Origin: Planosporangium flavigriseum
Lineage (GTDB): Bacteria > Actinomycetota > Actinomycetes > Mycobacteriales > Micromonosporaceae
Direction: 5' to 3'
Assembly: GCF_011947225.1 (NCBI RefSeq)
Contig: NZ_JAATVW010000008.1
Coordinates: 124,001-188,000 of the forward strand
Length of the DNA stretch: 64,000 nt
In this document: positions 51,025 through 64,000 of the stretch, piece after piece
Numbering within the stretch: position 1 is the first letter of the stretch
How the letters are laid out: each line of letters starts with the position of its first letter
Translations under genes and position numbers: made by a program
Notes under the pieces: generated by a model
What the model saw: the letters and a program-made list of their open reading frames with translations, nothing else
Told to the model about the DNA's origin: nothing
Databases searched by the model: none

Positions 51025-52179
51025 GTGAACCTCCACTCCCACGTCGAGCGCATCCTGCCCAGCGACGAGGCGTACGCGCTGCTCGACCTGACCCGCGACA
51101 TCGCCGACGCGGAGCTGGCCCCGCGCGCGGACGACTTCGAAGCGCGCGGAGAGTTCCCCCGCGACCTGGTGCGCACCTTGGGCCGCGCCGGCCTGTTGGG
51201 GCTGCCATATCCGGAGGAGTACGGCGGCGGCGCCCAGCCGTACGAGGTGTACCTGCAGGTACTTGAGGAGTTGGCCCGCCGCTGGCTCGCCGTCGCCGAA
51301 GCGGTGTCGGTGCACACCCTCGCCTGCTACCCGCTCGCTGGGTTCGGCACGGACGCCCAGCGCAAGCGGTTGCTGCCGGACATGCTCGGCGGTGAGCTGC
51401 TCGGCGCGTACTGCCTGTCCGAGCCCGCCGGAGGCTCCGATGCCGCCGCGATGACCACGAAGGCCGTACGCGATGGCGACGCGTATGTGGTGACCGGCAC
51501 GAAGGCCTGGATCACCCACGCCGGGTACGCCGACTTCTACAACATCTTCTGCCGTACCGGCGGCCCGGGCGCCCGCGGCATCTCGTGCCTGCTCGCCGAC
51601 GCCGCCACGCCGGGCATCGTGCCGCAGGCCCGGGAGCGCACGATGGGGCTGCGCGCCTCGCCAGTGGCCCAGATCGCGTTCGACGGCGCCCGGGTGGCGG
51701 GCGACCGGCTGCTCGGCGAGGAGAACACCGGCTTCCGGATCGCCATGAGCGCCCTGGACGGCGGCCGGCTGGGCATCGCCGCGTGCGCGGTGGGCCTGGC
51801 GCAGGCGGCGCTGGACTACGCGGTCGCGTATGCGCAGGAGCGCCAGCAGTTCGGCCAGCCGATCGCACAGTTCCAGGGGGTCGGCTTCCTGCTGGCCGAC
51901 ATGGCCACCCAGGTGTCCGCGGCCCGCGCCCTGCTCCTCGCTGCGGCCCGGCTGCGCGACGCCGGCCGGCCGTACGGCGTGGAAGCGGCCAAGGCCAAGC
52001 TGTTCGCCACCGACATGGCGATGCGGGTGACCACCGACGCCGTGCAGGTGCTCGGGGGGTACGGCTACGTAGCGGACCACCCGGTCGAGCGGTACATGCG
52101 CGAGGCCAAGGTGCTGCAGATCGTGGAGGGCACCAACCAGATCCAGCGGCTGGTGATTTCCCGCGCGCTCACGAAATGA
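51025..52179 (+). CDS. Acyl-CoA dehydrogenase
   Basis: 384 residues. FAD- and substrate-binding segments: GAYCLSEPAGGSDAAAMTTK near 125-145, WITHAGYADFYN at about 160, DGGRLGIAACAVGLAQAALD, and VLGGYGYVADHPVERYMREA then VLQIVEGTNQIQRLVISRAL at the end, with the Glu of the EGT motif in the catalytic position of short/medium-chain enzymes. It oxidises an acyl-CoA to the 2-enoyl-CoA and passes electrons to ETF. A link to the lysine cluster 4 kb away (crotonyl-CoA/butyryl-CoA) is possible but not shown. Confidence 0.93.
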   Translation: MNLHSHVERILPSDEAYALLDLTRDIADAELAPRADDFEARGEFPRDLVRTLGRAGLLGLPYPEEYGGGAQPYEVYLQVLEELARRWLAVAEAVSVHTLACYPLAGFGTDAQRKRLLPDMLGGELLGAYCLSEPAGGSDAAAMTTKAVRDGDAYVVTGTKAWITHAGYADFYNIFCRTGGPGARGISCLLADAATPGIVPQARERTMGLRASPVAQIAFDGARVAGDRLLGEENTGFRIAMSALDGGRLGIAACAVGLAQAALDYAVAYAQERQQFGQPIAQFQGVGFLLADMATQVSAARALLLAAARLRDAGRPYGVEAAKAKLFATDMAMRVTTDAVQVLGGYGYVADHPVERYMREAKVLQIVEGTNQIQRLVISRALTK

Positions 52180-52266
52180 GCGCCGGATCGCACCAGATGA
52201 GCGCCGGCTGGCACCCTGCGCATGAGTGAATCGCTCCGCCCGCACACCCCGGGTGCGGCGGCAGTG

Positions 52267-52279
52267 TAGTTTTCCGGGC
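52267..52279 (+). promoter_or_regulatory. -10 box for the Lrp/AsnC regulator (leaderless)
   Basis: TAGTTT at 52267-52272, then 7 nt and GTG 52280. Confidence 0.5.
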
Positions 52280-52723
52280 GTGGAAGAGACGGATCGGGCC
52301 ATCCTCACCGAACTCGGCAGAGACGGCCGGCAGTCCTACACCGACCTTGCCGAGAAGGTCGGGCTGTCGGTGTCCGCGGTGCACCAGCGGGTGCGCCGGC
52401 TCGAACAGCGGGGAGTGATCCGGGGCTACGCCGCCCGGTTGGACCATGAGGCCCTGGGCCTGCCGCTGACCGCGTTCGTGGCGATTCGCCCCATCGACCC
52501 CTCACAGCCAGACGACGCGCCGGAGCGGCTGGCCGACCTGCCCGAGATCGAGGCGTGCTACTCGGTGGCCGGCGACGACTTCTACATGCTGCTCGTGCGG
52601 GTCGCGAGCCCGGCCGATCTCGAGCGACTCCTCCAGGAGATCCGCAAGGCCGCGAACGTGGCGACGCGCACGACCGTGGTGCTCTCCACCCCGTACGAGG
52701 GGCGCCCGCCGCAGATCAGATGA
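52280..52723 (+). CDS. Lrp/AsnC-family regulator
   Basis: 147 residues from GTG 52280, which starts MEETDRAILTELGRDGRQSY as the family does. The HTH is TDLAEKVGLSVSAVHQRVRR and is followed by the RAM ligand-binding domain (LTAFVAIRPI, YSVAGDDFYMLLVRV). These regulators sense amino acids and form octamers. It may control lysine catabolism in the nearby kam cluster, which is an inference from distance and family only. It overlaps the convergent phosphatase gene by 8 bp. Confidence 0.9.
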   Translation: MEETDRAILTELGRDGRQSYTDLAEKVGLSVSAVHQRVRRLEQRGVIRGYAARLDHEALGLPLTAFVAIRPIDPSQPDDAPERLADLPEIEACYSVAGDDFYMLLVRVASPADLERLLQEIRKAANVATRTTVVLSTPYEGRPPQIR

Positions 52724-56179: not shown

Positions 56180-57538
56180 TCAGACGGCGACGGTCGCCTG
56201 TTGCTTGCGCCAGAATTTCTTTCCGGACTCGGGCAGCGTGTCGATCGGGTCGTAGTACGGGTACCGGCGGTCCAGGGCGTCGAGGTCGGCGGACTCGATC
56301 GAGGTGCGGTAGTTCTTGGTCCAGTACGAGATGCCGTGTTCGCGGTCGTACTCGGTGAGCATGTGGACCCAGCGCTTGCCGACGAACGGGACGTCGCACA
56401 CGATCCGCGGTGTGGCGTAGCCGGGCAGGTAGCCCATGATGTCGTGCTGCAGTTGCTGTGCCTGCCAGACGGCGACGCGCCAGTGTTCGGCGTTGGGGAT
56501 CATGTCGCACAGGTAGAAGTAGTACGGCAGGATGCCTGCCTCTCCCTGCAGCGCGAAGCACAGGTCGAGCAGGTCGGCGCTGGTGGCGTTGACGCCGCGC
56601 ATGAGGACGCCCTGGTTGCGGACGTCGCGGACGCCGACTTCGAGGGCGGTCCGCGCCGCGCGGGCGACCAGGGGCGTCAGCGACTGCGCGTGGTTGACGT
56701 GGGTGTGGATGGCGAGGTTGACGCCGCGGCGGGCGGCGGTACGGGCGACGCGTTCCATGCCTTCGACGACGTCGGGCTGCAGCCAGTGCTGCGGCAGGCC
56801 CATCAGGGCCTTGGTGGCCAGGCGGATGTCGCGGATGGTCTCGATGTCGAGCAGTCGCATGAGGAACGACTCGAGGTTTCGCCACGGCACGTTGGCGACG
56901 TCGCCGCCGGAGACGACGACGTCGCGCACACCGGGGTGGGTCTTCACATACGCGATCATGCCCTCATAGCGGTCCACCGGCTTCAGTGTCAGCTTGAGCT
57001 TGTCCACGGTTGGGGTGGAGTTGCCGACGAGGTCCATCCGGGTGCAGTGCCCGCAGTACTGCGGGCAGGTGGGGAGCAGTTCGGCGAGGACCTTGGTGGG
57101 GTAGCGGTGGGTGAGCCCTTCGGCGACCCACATGTCGTGCTCGTGGAGGGAGTCGCGGGTGGCGTACGGGTGGGAGGGCCAGTCGGGGCGCCGGTCGGAG
57201 GCGACGGGGATCATGTACCGGCGTACCGGGTCGGCGTAGAACCTGTCGGTGTCCGGGGTCGCTGTCGGCACCATCGTGTTGAGCATCTGCGGGGTGACCA
57301 ACATGGACATGGTGGCGAGTCGCTGCTGGTCTTCGAGGAGGTCGGTGTAGAAGGCCTCGTCGACGAGGTCGCCGAGGACGGTCCGCAGCTGCTTGACGTT
57401 CTTGACGCAGTTGGCTCGTTGCCACCGGGCGGATTCCCACTGCTCGCGGGTGACGTGGCGCCAGCCGGGCAGCCGGGTCCAGTCCGGTTCGACCAGCGTG
57501 CGTCGCTGGTACAGGTAGGGCTGGCCGGGTTCGTTCAC
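56180..57538 (-). CDS. kamA: Lysine 2,3-aminomutase, radical SAM/PLP enzyme
   Basis: 452 residues from GTG 57538 with AAGGAGG 4 nt upstream. The radical SAM cluster motif is C158PQYC162GHC165 (CX3CX2C); VVSGGDVANVP and the HTHVNHAQSLTP segment bind SAM and substrate; PRIVCDVPFVGKRW near the end holds the likely PLP lysine. The enzyme moves the alpha-amino group of L-lysine to C3, giving beta-lysine, the first step of lysine fermentation. It is divergent from the genes for the later steps. KamA homologues also make beta-lysine for antibiotics or osmoprotection, but the partners here favour degradation. Confidence 0.92.
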   Translation of the reverse strand: MNEPGQPYLYQRRTLVEPDWTRLPGWRHVTREQWESARWQRANCVKNVKQLRTVLGDLVDEAFYTDLLEDQQRLATMSMLVTPQMLNTMVPTATPDTDRFYADPVRRYMIPVASDRRPDWPSHPYATRDSLHEHDMWVAEGLTHRYPTKVLAELLPTCPQYCGHCTRMDLVGNSTPTVDKLKLTLKPVDRYEGMIAYVKTHPGVRDVVVSGGDVANVPWRNLESFLMRLLDIETIRDIRLATKALMGLPQHWLQPDVVEGMERVARTAARRGVNLAIHTHVNHAQSLTPLVARAARTALEVGVRDVRNQGVLMRGVNATSADLLDLCFALQGEAGILPYYFYLCDMIPNAEHWRVAVWQAQQLQHDIMGYLPGYATPRIVCDVPFVGKRWVHMLTEYDREHGISYWTKNYRTSIESADLDALDRRYPYYDPIDTLPESGKKFWRKQQATVAV

Positions 57539-57632
57539 CGCGCCTCCTTAGAGAGAATGGAGAATCTACGGCCGATAGATTAACCTGCGGGAAGAATTCT
57601 CGTCACTGCCCGGATTAAACGTAGGAGTTTTC
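57539..57632. promoter_or_regulatory. Divergent kamA/kdd promoter region with inverted repeat
   Basis: AATCTA (57563-57568) and TAGATT (57576-57581) form an inverted repeat around 7 bases. Each arm reads TAGATT on one strand and could be the -10 box of one of the two genes, so a single regulator could act on both. Ribosome sites: AAGGAGG before kamA, AGGAG before kdd. Confidence 0.5.
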
Positions 57633-58661
57633 ATGACCTCGCCCGTCGGGCTGCATCGGGTACTCGCGCCGCGCGGCGTGCTGCCCCAGGCGGCCGACCG
57701 ACTGGACAGCCGTCCGGAGATCGGACCGGACGAGGTGCGGGTCCGGGTCGAGCGGCTCAACCTGGACGCGGCGAGCTTCCGGCAGCTGGCCACGAAGCAC
57801 GCCGGTGACGGCGAGAGCGTGCGGGCCGAGGTGCTCGCGATCATTGAGGCTCGGGGCAAGATGCACAACCCGGTCACCGGCTCCGGTGGCATGCTCATCG
57901 GTACGGTCGACGAGGTCGGCCCGGAGTCGTCGCTGGGCCTCAAACCTGGCGACCGGGTCGCCACGCTGGTGTCGTTGACGCTGACCCCACTCAAGATCAC
58001 CGACGGGTTGAGAAGCTGGGACGGGTTGAGCGAGCAGGTGCCCTGTGACGGGCACGCGATCCTGTTCGGACGGTCGATCGCGGCGGTGCTCCCCGACGAC
58101 CTGCCTGCGGAGTTGGCTCTGGCCGTGTTCGACGTGTGCGGCGCGCCCGCGCTGACCGACCGGGTCGTCCGGCGTTACGGCCATCCGACCGTGGCAGTCA
58201 TCGGCGGTGCGGGCAAGAGCGGCTGTCTGTCGCTCGCCGCAGCCCGGCGCGCCGGCGCCCGTACCGTCGGGGTGGTCCCCACGACCGCGGAGCGCGACCT
58301 GCTGTCGAAGGCCGGTCTGGCGAACGCGGTGGCTCTCGCCGACGCCCGTGACCCGGTTGCGCTGAGCAGAGCCGTGACCGAGGCCCTGGGCGGGCCGGCG
58401 GACGTGACCGTGGTGTGCGTGGACGTGCCCGGCTGCGAGCACGGGGCGATCCTGTCGACGGCCGACGGCGGTACCGTGATCTTCTTTTCGATGGCCACGT
58501 CGTTCCCGGCCGCTGCGCTGGGGGCGGAGGGCCTGGCTGCGGACGTGACCATGCTGATCGGCAACGGGTACGCGCCGGGCCACGCCGACTTCGCGCTGGA
58601 CCTGCTGCGGGGTGTGCCGGCGGTGCGGGATCTGTTCGCGGCGCGGCTGGCGGCAGACTGA
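57633..58661 (+). CDS. kdd: L-erythro-3,5-diaminohexanoate dehydrogenase
   Basis: 342 residues. It starts MTSPVGLHRVLAPRGVLPQA, has EVLAIIEARGKMHNPVTGSG, a family-specific segment, and an NAD-binding site VAVIGGAGKSGCLSLAAARR at about 188. Kdd oxidatively deaminates 3,5-diaminohexanoate to 3-keto-5-aminohexanoate with NAD, the step after lysine 5,6-aminomutase. AGGAG precedes the ATG. First gene of the rightward operon. Confidence 0.9.
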   Translation: MTSPVGLHRVLAPRGVLPQAADRLDSRPEIGPDEVRVRVERLNLDAASFRQLATKHAGDGESVRAEVLAIIEARGKMHNPVTGSGGMLIGTVDEVGPESSLGLKPGDRVATLVSLTLTPLKITDGLRSWDGLSEQVPCDGHAILFGRSIAAVLPDDLPAELALAVFDVCGAPALTDRVVRRYGHPTVAVIGGAGKSGCLSLAAARRAGARTVGVVPTTAERDLLSKAGLANAVALADARDPVALSRAVTEALGGPADVTVVCVDVPGCEHGAILSTADGGTVIFFSMATSFPAAALGAEGLAADVTMLIGNGYAPGHADFALDLLRGVPAVRDLFAARLAAD

Positions 58662-58665
58662 GGCC

Positions 58666-60228
58666 ATGACCCCCTCCGCCATGACCCCCTCCACGCTCTA
58701 CCGCAACGGGCGGATCTACAGCGCGTCCGTGCCCGGTTCGACCGCGCTGCTCGTCACCGACGGCCGGATCGCCTGGCTTGGCGCCGACACCGGGGCGCCG
58801 GCCGCCGACCGGGTCGTCGACGTCGCCGGCGCGCTGATCGCGCCGGCGTTCGTCGACGCGCACGTGCACGCGTTCGACACCGGCCTCACCCTGCTGGGAC
58901 TCGACCTGGCCGCCACCCGGTCGCGGGAGGACGTCCTCGACGCGGTGCGCCGGCACGCTGCGGACCTGCCCGGTGACGCGGTCGTGGTCGGGCACGGCTG
59001 GGACGAGTCGGGCTGGGTCGACCAGCGGCCACCGGCGGCGGCAGAGCTGGACCGCGCGGCGGGCGGCCGAATGGTGTACCTGTCGCAGGCGTCGGTGCAC
59101 TCGGCGATCGTCTCGTCGCCGCTGCTGGCGAGGGTGTCCCCGGACGTGCCGGGCTACGCGTCCGACGGCTGGCTGCGCCGGGACGCCCATCACGTGGTGC
59201 GCGGCATCGCCCACGGGTCGATCGGCGCCACGCAGCGCCGCCGGGCGCAGGAAACGGCGCTGCGGCACGCCGCGTCGCTGGGGATCGCGGCGGTGCACGA
59301 GTGCGGCGGGCCGGGCACGTCCGACGAGGAGGGCTTCCAGGCTCTCCTCGCACTGCCGGCCGAGGGTGACCTGCCCGAGGTGTACGGGTACTGGGGTGAG
59401 CTGGGCGCGGCCGCGAAGGCCCGCGAGCTGGGCGCGGTCGGGGCCGGTGGCGACCTGTACGCCGACGGGGCGCTCGGATCGCACACGGCCCACCTGCGCT
59501 CGCCCTACCTGGACGCCGACACCTCCGGCCATGGGTACGTCAGCGCTGAGCAGGTGGCCAAGCACCTGGTCGGCTGCGTACGCGAAGGGGTCCAGGGCGG
59601 GTTCCACGCCATCGGGGACGCGGCGATCGGCACGGTCCTCGACGGGTTCGGTCTGGCCGCGCGGCAGGTCGGTATCGACGCGCTGCGAGCCGGGCGGCAC
59701 CGCATCGAGCACCTGGAGATCCTCGACCGGGACCTGATCCGCGGGCTCGTCGAGTACGGGATCACCGCCAGCGTGCAGCCGGCGTTCGACCGGCTCTGGG
59801 GCGGCGAGCACGGCATGTACGCGCAGCGCCTCGGCGTCGCCCGGTCGCTGGAGTCCAACCCGCTGGGCGCCCTCGCCGGCGTCGGGGTGGCCCTCGCGTT
59901 CGGTTCGGACTCGCCGGTGACGCCGCTGGACCCGTGGGGAACGATCCGCGCGGCGGCCACCCACCACAACCCGGTGTACCGGGTGAGCACCCGGACGGCG
60001 TTCGCCGCGCACAGCCGGGGCGGCTGGCGGGCGGCCGGGCTCGACGCCGACGGCCGCCTCGCCCCTGGGACGTCGGCGACGTTCGCGGTGTGGGACGTGG
60101 CCGGGCCGCTGCAGGGCGGCCTGCCGGTGCTGGCCCCGGATTCGCCGGAGGAATCGGCGCCGGCGCTGCCGGTGTGCCGGCGCACCGTGCTGCGCGGCGA
60201 GGTGATCTACGACGTGGAGGACGCGTGA
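58666..60228 (+). CDS. YtcJ-like amidohydrolase in the lysine cluster
   Basis: 520 residues. Metal-dependent amidohydrolase with the VDAHVHAFDTG motif (HxH) near 65, QGGFHAIGDAAIG, HRIEHLEILDRDL, and FGSDSPVTPLDPWG at the end carrying the last catalytic Asp; this is the YtcJ/NfdA branch (N-substituted formamide deformylase-like). Start ATG 58666 or ATG 58681, part of a tandem 15-nt duplication. It sits 4 nt after kdd and overlaps kamD by 4 bp. No such enzyme is part of the known clostridial lysine pathway; it may hydrolyse an N-acyl lysine or a lactam to feed the pathway. Confidence 0.88.
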   Translation: MTPSAMTPSTLYRNGRIYSASVPGSTALLVTDGRIAWLGADTGAPAADRVVDVAGALIAPAFVDAHVHAFDTGLTLLGLDLAATRSREDVLDAVRRHAADLPGDAVVVGHGWDESGWVDQRPPAAAELDRAAGGRMVYLSQASVHSAIVSSPLLARVSPDVPGYASDGWLRRDAHHVVRGIAHGSIGATQRRRAQETALRHAASLGIAAVHECGGPGTSDEEGFQALLALPAEGDLPEVYGYWGELGAAAKARELGAVGAGGDLYADGALGSHTAHLRSPYLDADTSGHGYVSAEQVAKHLVGCVREGVQGGFHAIGDAAIGTVLDGFGLAARQVGIDALRAGRHRIEHLEILDRDLIRGLVEYGITASVQPAFDRLWGGEHGMYAQRLGVARSLESNPLGALAGVGVALAFGSDSPVTPLDPWGTIRAAATHHNPVYRVSTRTAFAAHSRGGWRAAGLDADGRLAPGTSATFAVWDVAGPLQGGLPVLAPDSPEESAPALPVCRRTVLRGEVIYDVEDA

Positions 60229-61784
60229 GCGGAAAACTCGACCTCGACCCGGCCCTCGTTCGCCGGGCGCGGCAGTTGGCCCGCAGGGCCGGCAAGCCGG
60301 TGGTGGACCTGGCGCGCAGCCACACGACCGTGTCGGTGGAGCGGGCGGTGCTGCGGCTGGCCGGGGTGACCGGCGCCGACGCCGACGGCATCCCGTTGGT
60401 CAACCGCCTGGTCGACGCGGTGGTGGCCGACGTCGGCCTGGGCCACGGGGTGGCGCTGCCGGTCGTCGAAGCCGCCACCCGCGAAGGCGTGGACGATCTG
60501 ACGTTGCTGGCGCAGAAGGCGGCCGCCGGGTCGGTGCGCTTCGAGGTGCCCTCGGGGAGGGCGGCGACGGCGGCGCGGCGCGCAGCCCGGCGGGCGGTCG
60601 GGGCGGGCATCACGCGGATCGACAAGCGCCGCGCCGAGCGAGACCGGCTGATCAAACGCCACGGCGACCCCGACCAACGACCCTGGATCTACCTGATCGT
60701 CGCCACCGGCGACATCTACGAGGACATCCCGCAGGCGCAGGCCGCCGCGCGGGAAGGCGCCGACATCATCGCCGTGATCCGGTCGACCGGGCAGTCCCTT
60801 TTGGACTACGTACCGGAGGGCGCCACCCGCGAGGGGTTCGCCGGCACGTACGCCACCCAGGAGAACTTCCGCCTGATGCGAGCGGCCCTCGACGAGTCGT
60901 CGCGCGAGTTGGGCCGCTACGTGCGGCTGACCAACTACGCCAGCGGCCTGTGCATGCCGGAGATCGCCACCCTGGCCGGCCTGGAACGGCTGGACATGAT
61001 GCTCAACGACTCGATGTACGGGATCCTGTTCCGCGACATCAACCCCATCCGCACCTTCGTCGACCAGCGGTTCTCCCGGCAGATCCACGCCCGGGCCGGG
61101 ATCATCATCAACACCGGTGAGGACAACTACCTGACCACCGCCGACGCGGTCGAGGCCGCGCACACCGTCACCGTGTCGCAGCTGCTCAACGAGTACTTCG
61201 CCCACGAGGCGGGGCTTGCGGACTGGCAGCTCGGCCTGGGTCACGCCTTCGAGATCAACCCCGACCTGCCGGAGTCGTTCCGCCTCGAACTCGCGCACGC
61301 GCTGCTGGCACGGGAGCTGTTCCCGCACGCGCCGCTGAAGTGGATGCCGCCCACCAAGCACATGACCGGCGACGTGTTCCGCGGCAACCTGCTCGACGGG
61401 TTCTTCAACCTGGCCGGCACCATGACCGGGCAGGGCATCCTGCTGGTGGGCATGATGACCGAGGCGGTGGTGACGCCGTGGCTGTCGGACCGGGACATCG
61501 CCCTGCAGAACGTCCGGTACGTGCTGAACGCCGCCGGTGGGCTGCACGAGGACTTCGTGCCGGCGCCCGGCGGATTCATCCAGCGGCGCGCGAACCATGT
61601 TCTGGGTGAGGCGGTGGACCTGCTGGAGCGGATCGTGGACGACACGCTGCTGAACGCGATCGCCGACGGCACGTTCGGGATCACCAAGCGCCCGGCCGAC
61701 CGGGGCAAGGGCCTCGACGGCGTGGCCCGCCACGAGGCCGGCTACTACAACCCGGCCACGGAGATCCTGGAGGGCGAGCAGTGA
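60225..61784 (+). CDS. kamD: Lysine 5,6-aminomutase alpha subunit
   Basis: 519 residues from GTG 60225, overlapping the amidohydrolase stop (GTGA); clostridial KamD is about 516. TIM-barrel segments include LDLDPALVRRARQLARRAG at the start, VIRSTGQSLLDYVPEGAT, YASGLCMPEIATLAGLERLD and WMPPTKHMTGDVFRGNLLDG. With KamE and adenosylcobalamin plus PLP it moves the terminal amino group of beta-lysine from C6 to C5. Finding it in an actinomycete with its reactivase suggests a working B12-dependent path. Confidence 0.94.
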   Translation: MSGKLDLDPALVRRARQLARRAGKPVVDLARSHTTVSVERAVLRLAGVTGADADGIPLVNRLVDAVVADVGLGHGVALPVVEAATREGVDDLTLLAQKAAAGSVRFEVPSGRAATAARRAARRAVGAGITRIDKRRAERDRLIKRHGDPDQRPWIYLIVATGDIYEDIPQAQAAAREGADIIAVIRSTGQSLLDYVPEGATREGFAGTYATQENFRLMRAALDESSRELGRYVRLTNYASGLCMPEIATLAGLERLDMMLNDSMYGILFRDINPIRTFVDQRFSRQIHARAGIIINTGEDNYLTTADAVEAAHTVTVSQLLNEYFAHEAGLADWQLGLGHAFEINPDLPESFRLELAHALLARELFPHAPLKWMPPTKHMTGDVFRGNLLDGFFNLAGTMTGQGILLVGMMTEAVVTPWLSDRDIALQNVRYVLNAAGGLHEDFVPAPGGFIQRRANHVLGEAVDLLERIVDDTLLNAIADGTFGITKRPADRGKGLDGVARHEAGYYNPATEILEGEQ

Positions 61785-61899
61785 GCGCCCCACGCCCACG
61801 CCGGCGCTCAAGCCCGCGCCCAAGATCCGCGCAGTTTCGCCGTAACTGCGGCTACCGGCCGGCGGATAGCAGCAACTTCGCCCAAACTGCGGAGAGTTC

Positions 61900-62646
61900 A
61901 TGAGCACCGTCATCCGCCCCTACGGGGACACCACCGGCGACGGCATGGTGCAGCTGTCGTTCACCCTGCCGGTGCCGTGCGACAAGCGCGCCGAGGGCGC
62001 GGCGCTGCAGTTGGCGGGCAAGATGGGCCTGGACCCGGCGATGGTGGTGCACGCCAAGCAGATGGGCGAAGGCTTCACGTTCTTCGTGGTGTACGGGCGG
62101 GTCAACCACCTCGTCGACCTGTCCGAGGTCGTCGTCGCCGAGCGGGACTTCCCGCTGCTGTCGCCCCATGAGGTCAACGCGCTGGTGAAGCGGCGGCTGC
62201 GGCGCGAGCTCGTCGTGGTCGGGGCCTGCATCGGTACGGATGCGCACACGGTCGGCATCGACGCGATCCTCAACGTCAAGGGGATCGCGGGGGAGAAGGG
62301 CCTGGAGTACTACCGGGAGCTGCGGGTGGTCAACCTGGGTTCCCAGGTGGCCGTGCCCGACCTCGTCGAGGCCGCCCGGGCGGAGAAGGCCGACGCGGTC
62401 CTGGTCAGCCAGGTCGTCACCCAGCGCGACGCGCACCTGCACAACACCCGGGAGATGTCGGCGGCGTTCCGGGAGGCGGTGCCGGCCGACCGCCGGCCGC
62501 TGCTGGTCGTCGGTGGTCCCCGCTTCGACGAGCTGATGGCCGCCGAACTGGGCGTCAACCGGATCTTCGGGCGCGGCACTACCCCGCGCGAGGTGGCCAG
62601 CTACCTCGTCCACGCGTTGATCACGCAGAAAGCGAAGGCAGCATGA
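61900..62646 (+). CDS. kamE: Lysine 5,6-aminomutase beta subunit, B12-binding
   Basis: 248 residues. The cobalamin motif DAHTVG has His116 as the cobalt ligand, and Lys127 in ILNVKGIAG lies 11 residues later, the same spacing as the His133-Lys144 pair of the Clostridium sticklandii enzyme, where the lysine holds PLP. The Rossmann-like half continues DAVLVSQVVTQRDAHL and LLVVGGPRF. GGAGAG precedes the ATG. It is 115 bp after kamD, the only sizeable gap in the operon. Confidence 0.94.
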   Translation: MSTVIRPYGDTTGDGMVQLSFTLPVPCDKRAEGAALQLAGKMGLDPAMVVHAKQMGEGFTFFVVYGRVNHLVDLSEVVVAERDFPLLSPHEVNALVKRRLRRELVVVGACIGTDAHTVGIDAILNVKGIAGEKGLEYYRELRVVNLGSQVAVPDLVEAARAEKADAVLVSQVVTQRDAHLHNTREMSAAFREAVPADRRPLLVVGGPRFDELMAAELGVNRIFGRGTTPREVASYLVHALITQKAKAA

Positions 62647-63026
62647 GCGTTGGTCTGACCGTCACCCACCGGCGTTACGTGCCCTCCTCGCACGCCCACT
62701 ACGCCGGCAACCTCGTCGACGGCGCGTACGCCCTCGGACTGTTCGGCGACGTCGCCACCGAGGTGTGCATCCGCACCGACGGCGACGAGGGCCTGTTCGC
62801 CTCGTACTCCGACGTGCAGTTCACCGCGCCGATACGGGCCGGCGACGTCCTCGAAGTGACCGCGACGGTCACCCGCATGGGTACCCGCAGCCGCACCGTC
62901 GACTTCACCTGCGCGGTCGTCTGCCGCGGCAACCCGGACAAGGGTGACTCCGCGGCTGAGGTCCTCGACCCGCCGATCGTCGCCGTCACGGCCACCGGCA
63001 CCGTGGTCGTCCCGCCGCGCCCGTGA
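62643..63026 (+). CDS. kal: 3-aminobutyryl-CoA ammonia-lyase
   Basis: 127 residues, hotdog-fold protein: TVTHRRYVPSSHAHYAGNLV at the start, DGAYALGLFGDVATE, SYSDVQFTAPIRAGDVLEV. The length and the HYAGNLVDGA segment match Kal of lysine-fermenting bacteria, which removes ammonia from L-3-aminobutyryl-CoA to give crotonyl-CoA. It overlaps kamE by 4 bp and the reactivase gene by 4 bp. This step comes after the Kce cleavage, so Kce is expected nearby but is not in the window. Confidence 0.9.
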   Translation: MSVGLTVTHRRYVPSSHAHYAGNLVDGAYALGLFGDVATEVCIRTDGDEGLFASYSDVQFTAPIRAGDVLEVTATVTRMGTRSRTVDFTCAVVCRGNPDKGDSAAEVLDPPIVAVTATGTVVVPPRP

Positions 63027-64000
63027 CCGCCCGCGTCGACGTGCGGACCCGGCCCGCGCCGGGCACGCCCCTGGCCGTCTGCGCCGACATCGGGTCGACC
63101 TACACGAAGGTCGCCGTGGTCGACGTGACCGACGGGACGCTCGTCGTGACCGCGTCGCACCCGACGACCGCCGGCACCGACGTCATGCACGGCCTCGACG
63201 CGTGCGTCGCCGACGTCGCGGAGCGGCTGCCCGGCCACGACCTGTCGACCCGGTACGCGTGCTCGTCGGCCGGTGGCGGGCTGCGCCTGGCCGTGGTCGG
63301 CTACGAGGCTCTGGTCAGCGCGGAGGCCGCGCACCGGGTCGCCACGAGCGCCGGGGCGCGGGTGGTGCACGTGGCCGCCGGGCGCCTGGACACGGCCGGG
63401 GTGACGGCGCTACGGGCGGCGCAACCGGACGTGGTGCTGCTGGTGGGCGGCACCGACGGCGGCGACGCCGAAACCGTACGCCACAACGCCGCGCGGCTGG
63501 CCGCCGCGCGGCTGCGGGTGCCGGTCGTGGTGGCCGGCAACGCCGATGCCCGCGACGACGTGGTCACGGCGCTGCGCGCGAAGAGCGTCCCGGTCGTCGC
63601 GACCGACAACGTGCTGCCCCGCATCGGGGTGCTCGCGCCGCAGCCGGCGCGGGCCGCGATCCGGGAGGTGTTCCTGCGCCACGTCATCAGCGGCAAGGGG
63701 CTGTCGCGCGATCCCCGCTTCGCCCGCCTGGTCCGTGGCGCCACCCCGGATGTCGTGCTGACCGCGGTGGAGCTGCTGGCCGACAACGCCGACAGTGCTG
63801 ACAGCGCCCCCGGCGACTTCGCCGTGGTCGACGTCGGCGGGGCCACCACCGACGTGTACTCGGTGATCGTGCCCGACGCCGAACGGTCGGCCGGGCCGGG
63901 CCGGGAGGTCGCCGGGGTGCTGTGGCGCAGCCGTACCGTCGAAGGCGACCTGGGCGTGCGGTGGAGCGCGCCCGGCGTGGTCGTCGCGGCGCGGGCGGAG
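63023..64000 (+). CDS. MutL/GlmL-type reactivase of the aminomutase (partial)
   Basis: The first 326 residues of a protein that runs past the window. From GTG 63023 it reads VCADIGSTYTKVAVVDV, an actin/ASKHA-type ATP-binding strand, then SSAGGGLRLAVVGYE, VLLVGGTDGGDAETVRHNAA and FAVVDVGGATTDVYSV, the second phosphate motif. This is the glutamate mutase MutL/GlmL family; homologues in lysine clusters (called KamB in some annotations) exchange damaged cobalamin in lysine 5,6-aminomutase. A MutS-like partner may follow. Coupled to kal by a 4-bp overlap. Confidence 0.88.
   Translation, partial: MTARVDVRTRPAPGTPLAVCADIGSTYTKVAVVDVTDGTLVVTASHPTTAGTDVMHGLDACVADVAERLPGHDLSTRYACSSAGGGLRLAVVGYEALVSAEAAHRVATSAGARVVHVAAGRLDTAGVTALRAAQPDVVLLVGGTDGGDAETVRHNAARLAAARLRVPVVVAGNADARDDVVTALRAKSVPVVATDNVLPRIGVLAPQPARAAIREVFLRHVISGKGLSRDPRFARLVRGATPDVVLTAVELLADNADSADSAPGDFAVVDVGGATTDVYSVIVPDAERSAGPGREVAGVLWRSRTVEGDLGVRWSAPGVVVAARAE

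Follow-up and report, generated by a model that had tools for sequence, protein, structure and literature searches.

In clostridia, lysine is fermented by the products of kamA, kamDE, kdd, kce and kal, as set out in the legend to Figure 1 of PMC3149608. The words “amidohydrolase”, “Actinobacteria” and “aerobic” do not occur in the main text of that article, and among the matches listed by a literature search that covered few subscription papers, none described the pathway in actinomycetes. A gene cluster for the same conversion of lysine to crotonyl-coenzyme A (CoA), most of whose products have solved relatives bearing the names of the clostridial enzymes, is located in a window of 64,000 nucleotides (contig NZ_JAATVW010000008.1, positions 124,001–188,000) of the high-GC actinomycete Planosporangium flavigriseum. 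Unlike its clostridial counterpart, it has a kamA gene divergent in both direction and sequence, an unlinked kce gene and, inside the operon, a gene for an amidohydrolase (AH) whose closest solved relatives, 3icj and 3igh of Pyrococcus, are uncharacterised YtcJ-like Amidohydro_3 proteins. It also differs in lying beside lnt and the presumed genes ppm1 and rbpA, and in having a MutL-type gene while no match to a MutS_V domain was found in the genome. Comparison with related loci suggests that two things probably share this locus, namely a lysine degradation pathway and an amidohydrolase that resides there independently of it.

The initial annotation had recognised kamA, kdd, kamD, kamE, kal and the MutL-type gene with their key residues and had read them as a lysine fermentation-type cluster. 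Both statements held; the divergence of kamA had gone unmentioned. Kdd, KamD, KamE and Kal scored 268, 703, 353 and 197 bits, respectively, above the NCBIfam equivalog cut-offs of 200 (NF052381), 600 (NF052384), 280 (NF052385) and 160 (NF052388), and the first three matched the solved proteins 7dl3 (E 3.1e-66), 8t0v (E 2.9e-164) and 9q1a (E 1.9e-63). The KamE motifs DAHTVG and N-x-KG are present in 108 of 108 relatives. KamA matched the solved lysine 2,3-aminomutase 2a5h with E 5.9e-38 and shares with it the CX3CX2C motif, an aligned pair of Asp residues and a Lys near the position of the pyridoxal 5'-phosphate (PLP) Lys, offset by one residue; these residues are invariant in all 96 relatives that are long enough. 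The two Asp correspond to D293 and D330 of 2a5h, which we take, numbering included, to be its substrate-binding pair.

The search for kce, CoA-transferase and MutS-like genes that had been proposed along with this annotation was successful for the first two. The kce gene is unlinked to the cluster (C12:248044-248883; individual contigs, loci, genomes, families and genera are denoted C, L, G, f and g); NF052387 (KCE) is its best family model and the KCE enzyme 2y7d its best solved match, so that a lack of kce could be rejected. A pair of CoA-transferase matches is located on C21, likewise away from the cluster. Across 394 genomes of the class Actinomycetes, kamE scored above its cut-off in 70, and kce (E <= 1e-50) was found in 68 of these 70, as compared to 8 of the 324 kamE-negative genomes. 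Among the latter eight, the kamE match is cut short or below the cut-off in G027, G076 and G119, other kam genes are present in G108, and kamE was not found in G069, G160, G244 and G290. The two kamE-positive genomes without kce are G023, which is 80% complete, and G261, which harbors a different type of cluster. In G275 (L068), kce adjoins kdd in a kam locus outside the usual lnt/ppm1 neighbourhood.

Since kce co-occurs with kamE even though it is unlinked, a working route from lysine to crotonyl-CoA is likely; the predicted pathway, besides being well supported, is no rarity in the class. Of the earlier view that an anaerobe-type pathway is unusual in such an organism, its presence thus stood, while its oddity did not, given the 70 genomes with kamE. 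KamA would convert L-lysine to beta-lysine, which the B12-dependent KamDE would isomerise to 3,5-diaminohexanoate; Kdd is predicted to oxidise the latter to 3-keto-5-aminohexanoate, from which Kce would form 3-aminobutyryl-CoA and acetoacetate, and Kal would release crotonyl-CoA from 3-aminobutyryl-CoA. Together with the CoA-transferase pair, the kam genes and kce would thus encode lysine degradation, the products of which probably feed beta-oxidation rather than butyrate formation.

AH belongs to PF07969 (236 bits versus a gathering score of 29.7) and possesses the HxH, H, H and D motifs of the metal ligands, which are aligned in 3icj and 3igh. Its predicted model (mean predicted local distance difference test score, 92.7) has the same fold, and these two proteins are its nearest neighbours in sequence (26 and 23% identity, respectively) as well as in structure (TM-score normalised by target length, 0.75 each). 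His66, His68, His314, His349 and Asp415 align with residues which we take, from the superfamily, to be metal ligands. Asp263 stands where 3icj has the Lys of its GVKLFVDG strand; the Lys of the ...VKxFxDG motif typical of YtcJ and 3icj is absent from AH. The protein is predicted to hydrolyse a small C–N bond in a metal-dependent manner, with these six residues as ligands and Asp263 replacing the usual (carboxylated) Lys of the metal site. Neither the model nor the Foldseek matches indicated an exact substrate, and we know of no substrate for the Asp-type subfamily; the family suggests a small amide or N-acyl compound.

The stop codon of AH and the start codon of kamD overlap by 4 base pairs (bp; GTGA, 60225-60228), as reported in the initial annotation; the ATG start of AH was placed at 58666, the frame staying open further 5'. 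Within the class, 71 kam loci were counted, L060 (a second contig of G061) and L076 (a distant mutase paralog) having been dropped beforehand, and 64 of them could be assessed for the interval between kdd and kamD, the other seven (L011, L014, L020, L036, L061, L062 and L069) having no kdd alongside kamD on the stretch. AH occupies this interval in 33 loci and is not in it in 31, 29 of which have a kdd-kamD gap of 160 bp or less; L012, L019, L024 and L032 contain 2-6 kb of DNA there besides AH. The kamA gene points away from the rest in 55 of 56 loci of the class. In family f49, which belongs to another class, all six kam-positive genomes of a phylum sample have AH in this interval; the order there is kamA-kdd-AH-kamD-kamE, all in one direction, with lrp (for an Lrp/AsnC-family regulator) beside kamA in five, the sixth stretch beginning inside kamA, and with lnt downstream in four. 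The survey proposed for the adjacency of AH and kamD thus confirms the observation, and because AH occupies the same slot in two classes, the adjacency is real and old. A lack of conservation of AH with kam genes in relatives, named in the initial annotation as fatal to its interpretation, is not what was found, since AH is kept between kdd and kamD in many of them.

The interpretation itself, in which AH acts on N-acyl, N-formyl or lactam derivatives to set lysine or beta-lysine free and thereby widens the entry to the kam pathway, was only partly supported and is now unlikely. The conserved slot, the overlap with kamD and the annotation of the family as amidohydrolases all speak for it. However, AH (E <= 1e-90) was detected in 189 of the 394 genomes, comprising 152 of the 324 without kamE and 37 of the 70 with it, and thus not at this threshold in 33 of the latter; in these counts, which ignore the kinship of the genomes, no dependence on kam is apparent (odds ratio 1.27, Fisher p 0.43), and a restriction of AH to kam clusters was rejected. 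The metal site argues in the same direction: its residues are the same in 74 full-length copies linked to kam and 74 free of it (a table from which five fragments were omitted), apart from one or two deviating copies at each position, and the position of Asp263 is occupied by Asp in 146 of the 148 (73 of 74 in each group), by Met in one and by Glu in one. Among copies from other classes, L239 being omitted due to its overlap with L209, it is Asp in 26 of 29, the others being L232 (Ser), L218 (Lys) and the truncated L211. Moreover, in genus g64 the AH in the slot is degenerate although kam genes stand beside it, that of L034 lacking the HxH motif, a further metal His and the Asp, and that of L026 being a shorter frame of 379 amino acids which aligned in two pieces; in the kam-positive f49 genome G468, AH contains an inner stop. 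Because the metal site is unchanged in kam-free genomes and AH shows no association with kamE, the substrate of AH is probably not derived from lysine, nor a dedicated intermediate of its degradation. The genome of P. flavigriseum contains a single AH gene (721 bits), the next amidohydrolase match scoring 58 bits; in the phylum sample of 198 genomes, AH (E <= 1e-60) was found in 63 and kamE above its cut-off in 12.

What AH does accompany, with and without kam genes, is a set of flanking genes, a locus of which no description was found in the literature search. On stretches read up to about 10 kb, lnt/ppm1 lie downstream in 66 of the 71 kam loci of the class, and of the five others, three reach the contig end within 900 bp. 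Of the 80 loci nearest by AH, mostly from Streptomyces and Kitasatospora where kam-free, 43 are free of kam genes in the stretch read; lnt/ppm1 follow within 3.5 kb in 39 of these, and lrp precedes in 40. A further 36 AH loci of the class, hand-picked from profile matches rather than drawn at random, include 31 kam-free ones, with lnt/ppm1 within 3.5 kb in 29; of the six exceptions in both sets, four reach the contig end within 700 bp. The 30 loci from other classes, picked in the same way, comprise seven linked to kam genes (six of f49, and L218), one without AH, and 22 that are kam-free, 13 of which have lrp or the acyl-CoA dehydrogenase gene acad upstream. In relatives, lrp frequently lies upstream of kamA or AH, and acad is often its neighbour in kam-positive and kam-free loci alike.

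Distances among AH copies track those of ppm1 (r 0.91), as do, less closely, those of kamD (r 0.65); for kamD, kamE, kamA, kdd and kal, r ranged from 0.53 to 0.73, and none of 500 permutations gave values as high (L034 and L218 were excluded from all correlations). Since the same locus occurs in many families and the kam distances correlate with those of ppm1, a recent arrival of the cluster was rejected. An AH tree of 148 tips requires at least 10 switches of kam state, and one of 177 tips that includes other classes at least 14, counts that cannot separate gain from loss. L202, L215 and L233 retain kamA beside or near AH, but their stretches contain no kdd, kamD or kamE and their genomes gave no match to kamE; these kamA genes are either relics or serve a separate beta-lysine role.

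The recurrence of lnt and ppm1, the products of which function in lipoprotein acylation and in the formation of polyprenol-phosphate mannose, raises the alternative that AH is functionally tied to them, for instance in amide turnover related to the cell envelope. Over the three sets, 81 of the 96 kam-free loci have lnt/ppm1 within 3.5 kb of AH, 11 of the 31 further class loci without kam show an aligned AH-lnt distance of no more than 120 bp, and AH distances closely track those of ppm1. The tie is nevertheless improbable: of the 31 kam loci which do not have AH in the slot, 28 still possess lnt/ppm1, no signal peptide was seen by eye in AH, and the correlation of distances shows only shared descent. 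A role of AH in metabolite repair, reopening lactams of 3,5-diaminohexanoate or 3-keto-5-aminohexanoate, would suit its place between kdd and kamD, the products of which could, on chemical grounds, cyclise to six-membered lactams; as its substrates would be lacking in the 152 genomes with AH and without kamE, it cannot be the sole role of AH, and we regard it as very improbable. That the cluster is biosynthetic, with beta-lysine or diaminohexanoate going into a natural product or an osmolyte, is scarcely credible. G261 speaks for it, where kamA-kdd-kamD-kamE lie amid adenylation, amino-acid ligase-like and aminotransferase genes with kal not in the stretch and kce not in the genome; against it, the cluster in the window has kal and its genome has kce and the CoA-transferases, and kce accompanies kamE in nearly all kamE-positive genomes of the class.

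We return to AH as a probably independent, and perhaps older, resident of a locus of the form acad-lrp-[kam]-lnt-ppm1-(fxsA)-rbpA which recurs in several classes of Actinomycetota. Because the same frame recurs, the kam state varies and the distances track those of ppm1, a single descending locus would account for the data. Its kam state has switched on many occasions, for which recurrent loss of the kam genes is the simplest explanation, and AH has separately been lost from the kdd-kamD interval. The Lrp/AsnC neighbour is probably an amino-acid sensor. Genes, their order, their co-occurrence and their residues were observed directly, whereas every activity named here is a prediction. Tentatively, the common ancestor of several classes may have possessed acad-lrp-kamA-kdd-AH-kamD-kamE-kal beside lnt-ppm1; AH, once part of an amino-acid module, might then have an undescribed activity that outlived the pathway and, with a carboxylate where the carbamylated Lys would stand, might act on a common cellular amide.

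Several observations weigh against this account. On the side of the pathway, KamA scored 154 bits, far short of the AblA cut-off of 525, and with 158 bits it also falls below the KamA-family cut-off of 199 and thus below every NCBIfam cut-off; kce, with 270 bits, does not reach its cut-off of 382. On the side of AH, the kdd-kamD slot that it occupies in two classes and its overlap with kamD could mean a role related to lysine after all. The comparison across genomes disregards kinship, and the threshold of 1e-90 misses some AH copies in kam-positive genomes, for example the one cut by a contig end in G021 (L062), and for this reason the count of genomes with both is slightly low. In other classes, lnt/ppm1 lie within 3.5 kb in only 13 of the 22 kam-free AH loci, and positions 113, 117 and 300, outside the metal site, vary. 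Finally, in the kam cluster of L218 (G565, family f62, another class), the amidohydrolase adjoining kal is a different YtcJ protein, of the Lys type; the cluster also contains a gene for a TrmB-type regulator.

The named genes of the window (Table 1) are all long open frames, and those from kdd to the MutL-type gene form a tight run on the plus strand, with kamA on the opposite strand.

Table 1. Genes of the lysine locus and its upstream neighbours in the window
Gene	Predicted product	Position	Strand	Basis
acad	Acyl-CoA dehydrogenase	51025..52179	+	Pfam Acyl-CoA_dh
lrp	Lrp/AsnC-family regulator	52226..52723	+	Pfam HTH_AsnC-type and AsnC_trans_reg
kamA	Divergent lysine 2,3-aminomutase-like radical S-adenosylmethionine enzyme	56180..57538	-	NCBIfam KamA family (below cut-off), 2a5h
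kdd	L-erythro-3,5-diaminohexanoate dehydrogenase	57633..58661	+	NF052381, 7dl3
AH	Amidohydro_3, YtcJ-like amidohydrolase, Asp263 subfamily	58666..60228	+	PF07969; nearest 3icj/3igh
kamD	Lysine 5,6-aminomutase, alpha subunit	60225..61784 (GTG start)	+	NF052384, 8t0v
kamE	Lysine 5,6-aminomutase, beta subunit (predicted to bind B12 and PLP)	61900..62646	+	NF052385, 9q1a, motifs
kal	3-Aminobutyryl-CoA ammonia lyase	62643..63026	+	NF052388
MutL-type	GlmL family protein	63023..64000 (continues to ~64444 beyond the window)	+	Pfam MutL, TIGR01319

The MutL-type gene (Pfam MutL, 445 bits; the GlmL subfamily model TIGR01319 was the only NCBIfam model passed) is complete at L002:12023-13444, with 473 amino acids, and we take its product to be a possible reactivase of the B12 mutase. 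It follows kal in the kam loci of Micromonosporaceae and Stackebrandtia (L078-L110, L112 and L114); in the other kam loci read it was not found after kal by tblastn, except in L002, L007 and L031, which belong to the family of P. flavigriseum. An lnt-type gene (Pfam LNT_N) follows it just beyond the end of the window. The genes after lnt are presumably ppm1, fxsA and rbpA, to judge from their order, length and look; the ppm1 candidate encodes a glycosyltransferase that is below all NCBIfam cut-offs. Among named relatives, Planosporangium mesophilum, also of the Micromonosporaceae, has the closest AH (85% identity).

Two kam-type loci differ from those described above. In L063 (G261; f21, g28, by inference Streptomyces-like), the kam genes are located away from the usual locus, neighboured by genes for AMP-binding, luciferase-like monooxygenase, ATP-grasp, aminotransferase, thioesterase, short-chain dehydrogenase/reductase and major facilitator superfamily proteins, and an open frame of 930 amino acids seems to fuse kdd and kamD; L063 is likely a natural-product cluster that uses lysine mutases. 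L076 (G081 C1:2590200-2610100) contains a second, distant pair of B12 aminomutase alpha and beta subunits with 28-32% identity and a MutL-type gene of its own.

The anaerobe-type lysine route would thus be no oddity in P. flavigriseum, its distribution suggesting that it is old and fixed in the chromosomes of many actinomycetes. The evidence also separates two genes in a way that their position would not: kce, though unlinked, apparently belongs with the pathway, whereas AH, though linked, probably does not. The comparison draws attention to a widespread subfamily of predicted amidohydrolases, with Streptomyces among its carriers.

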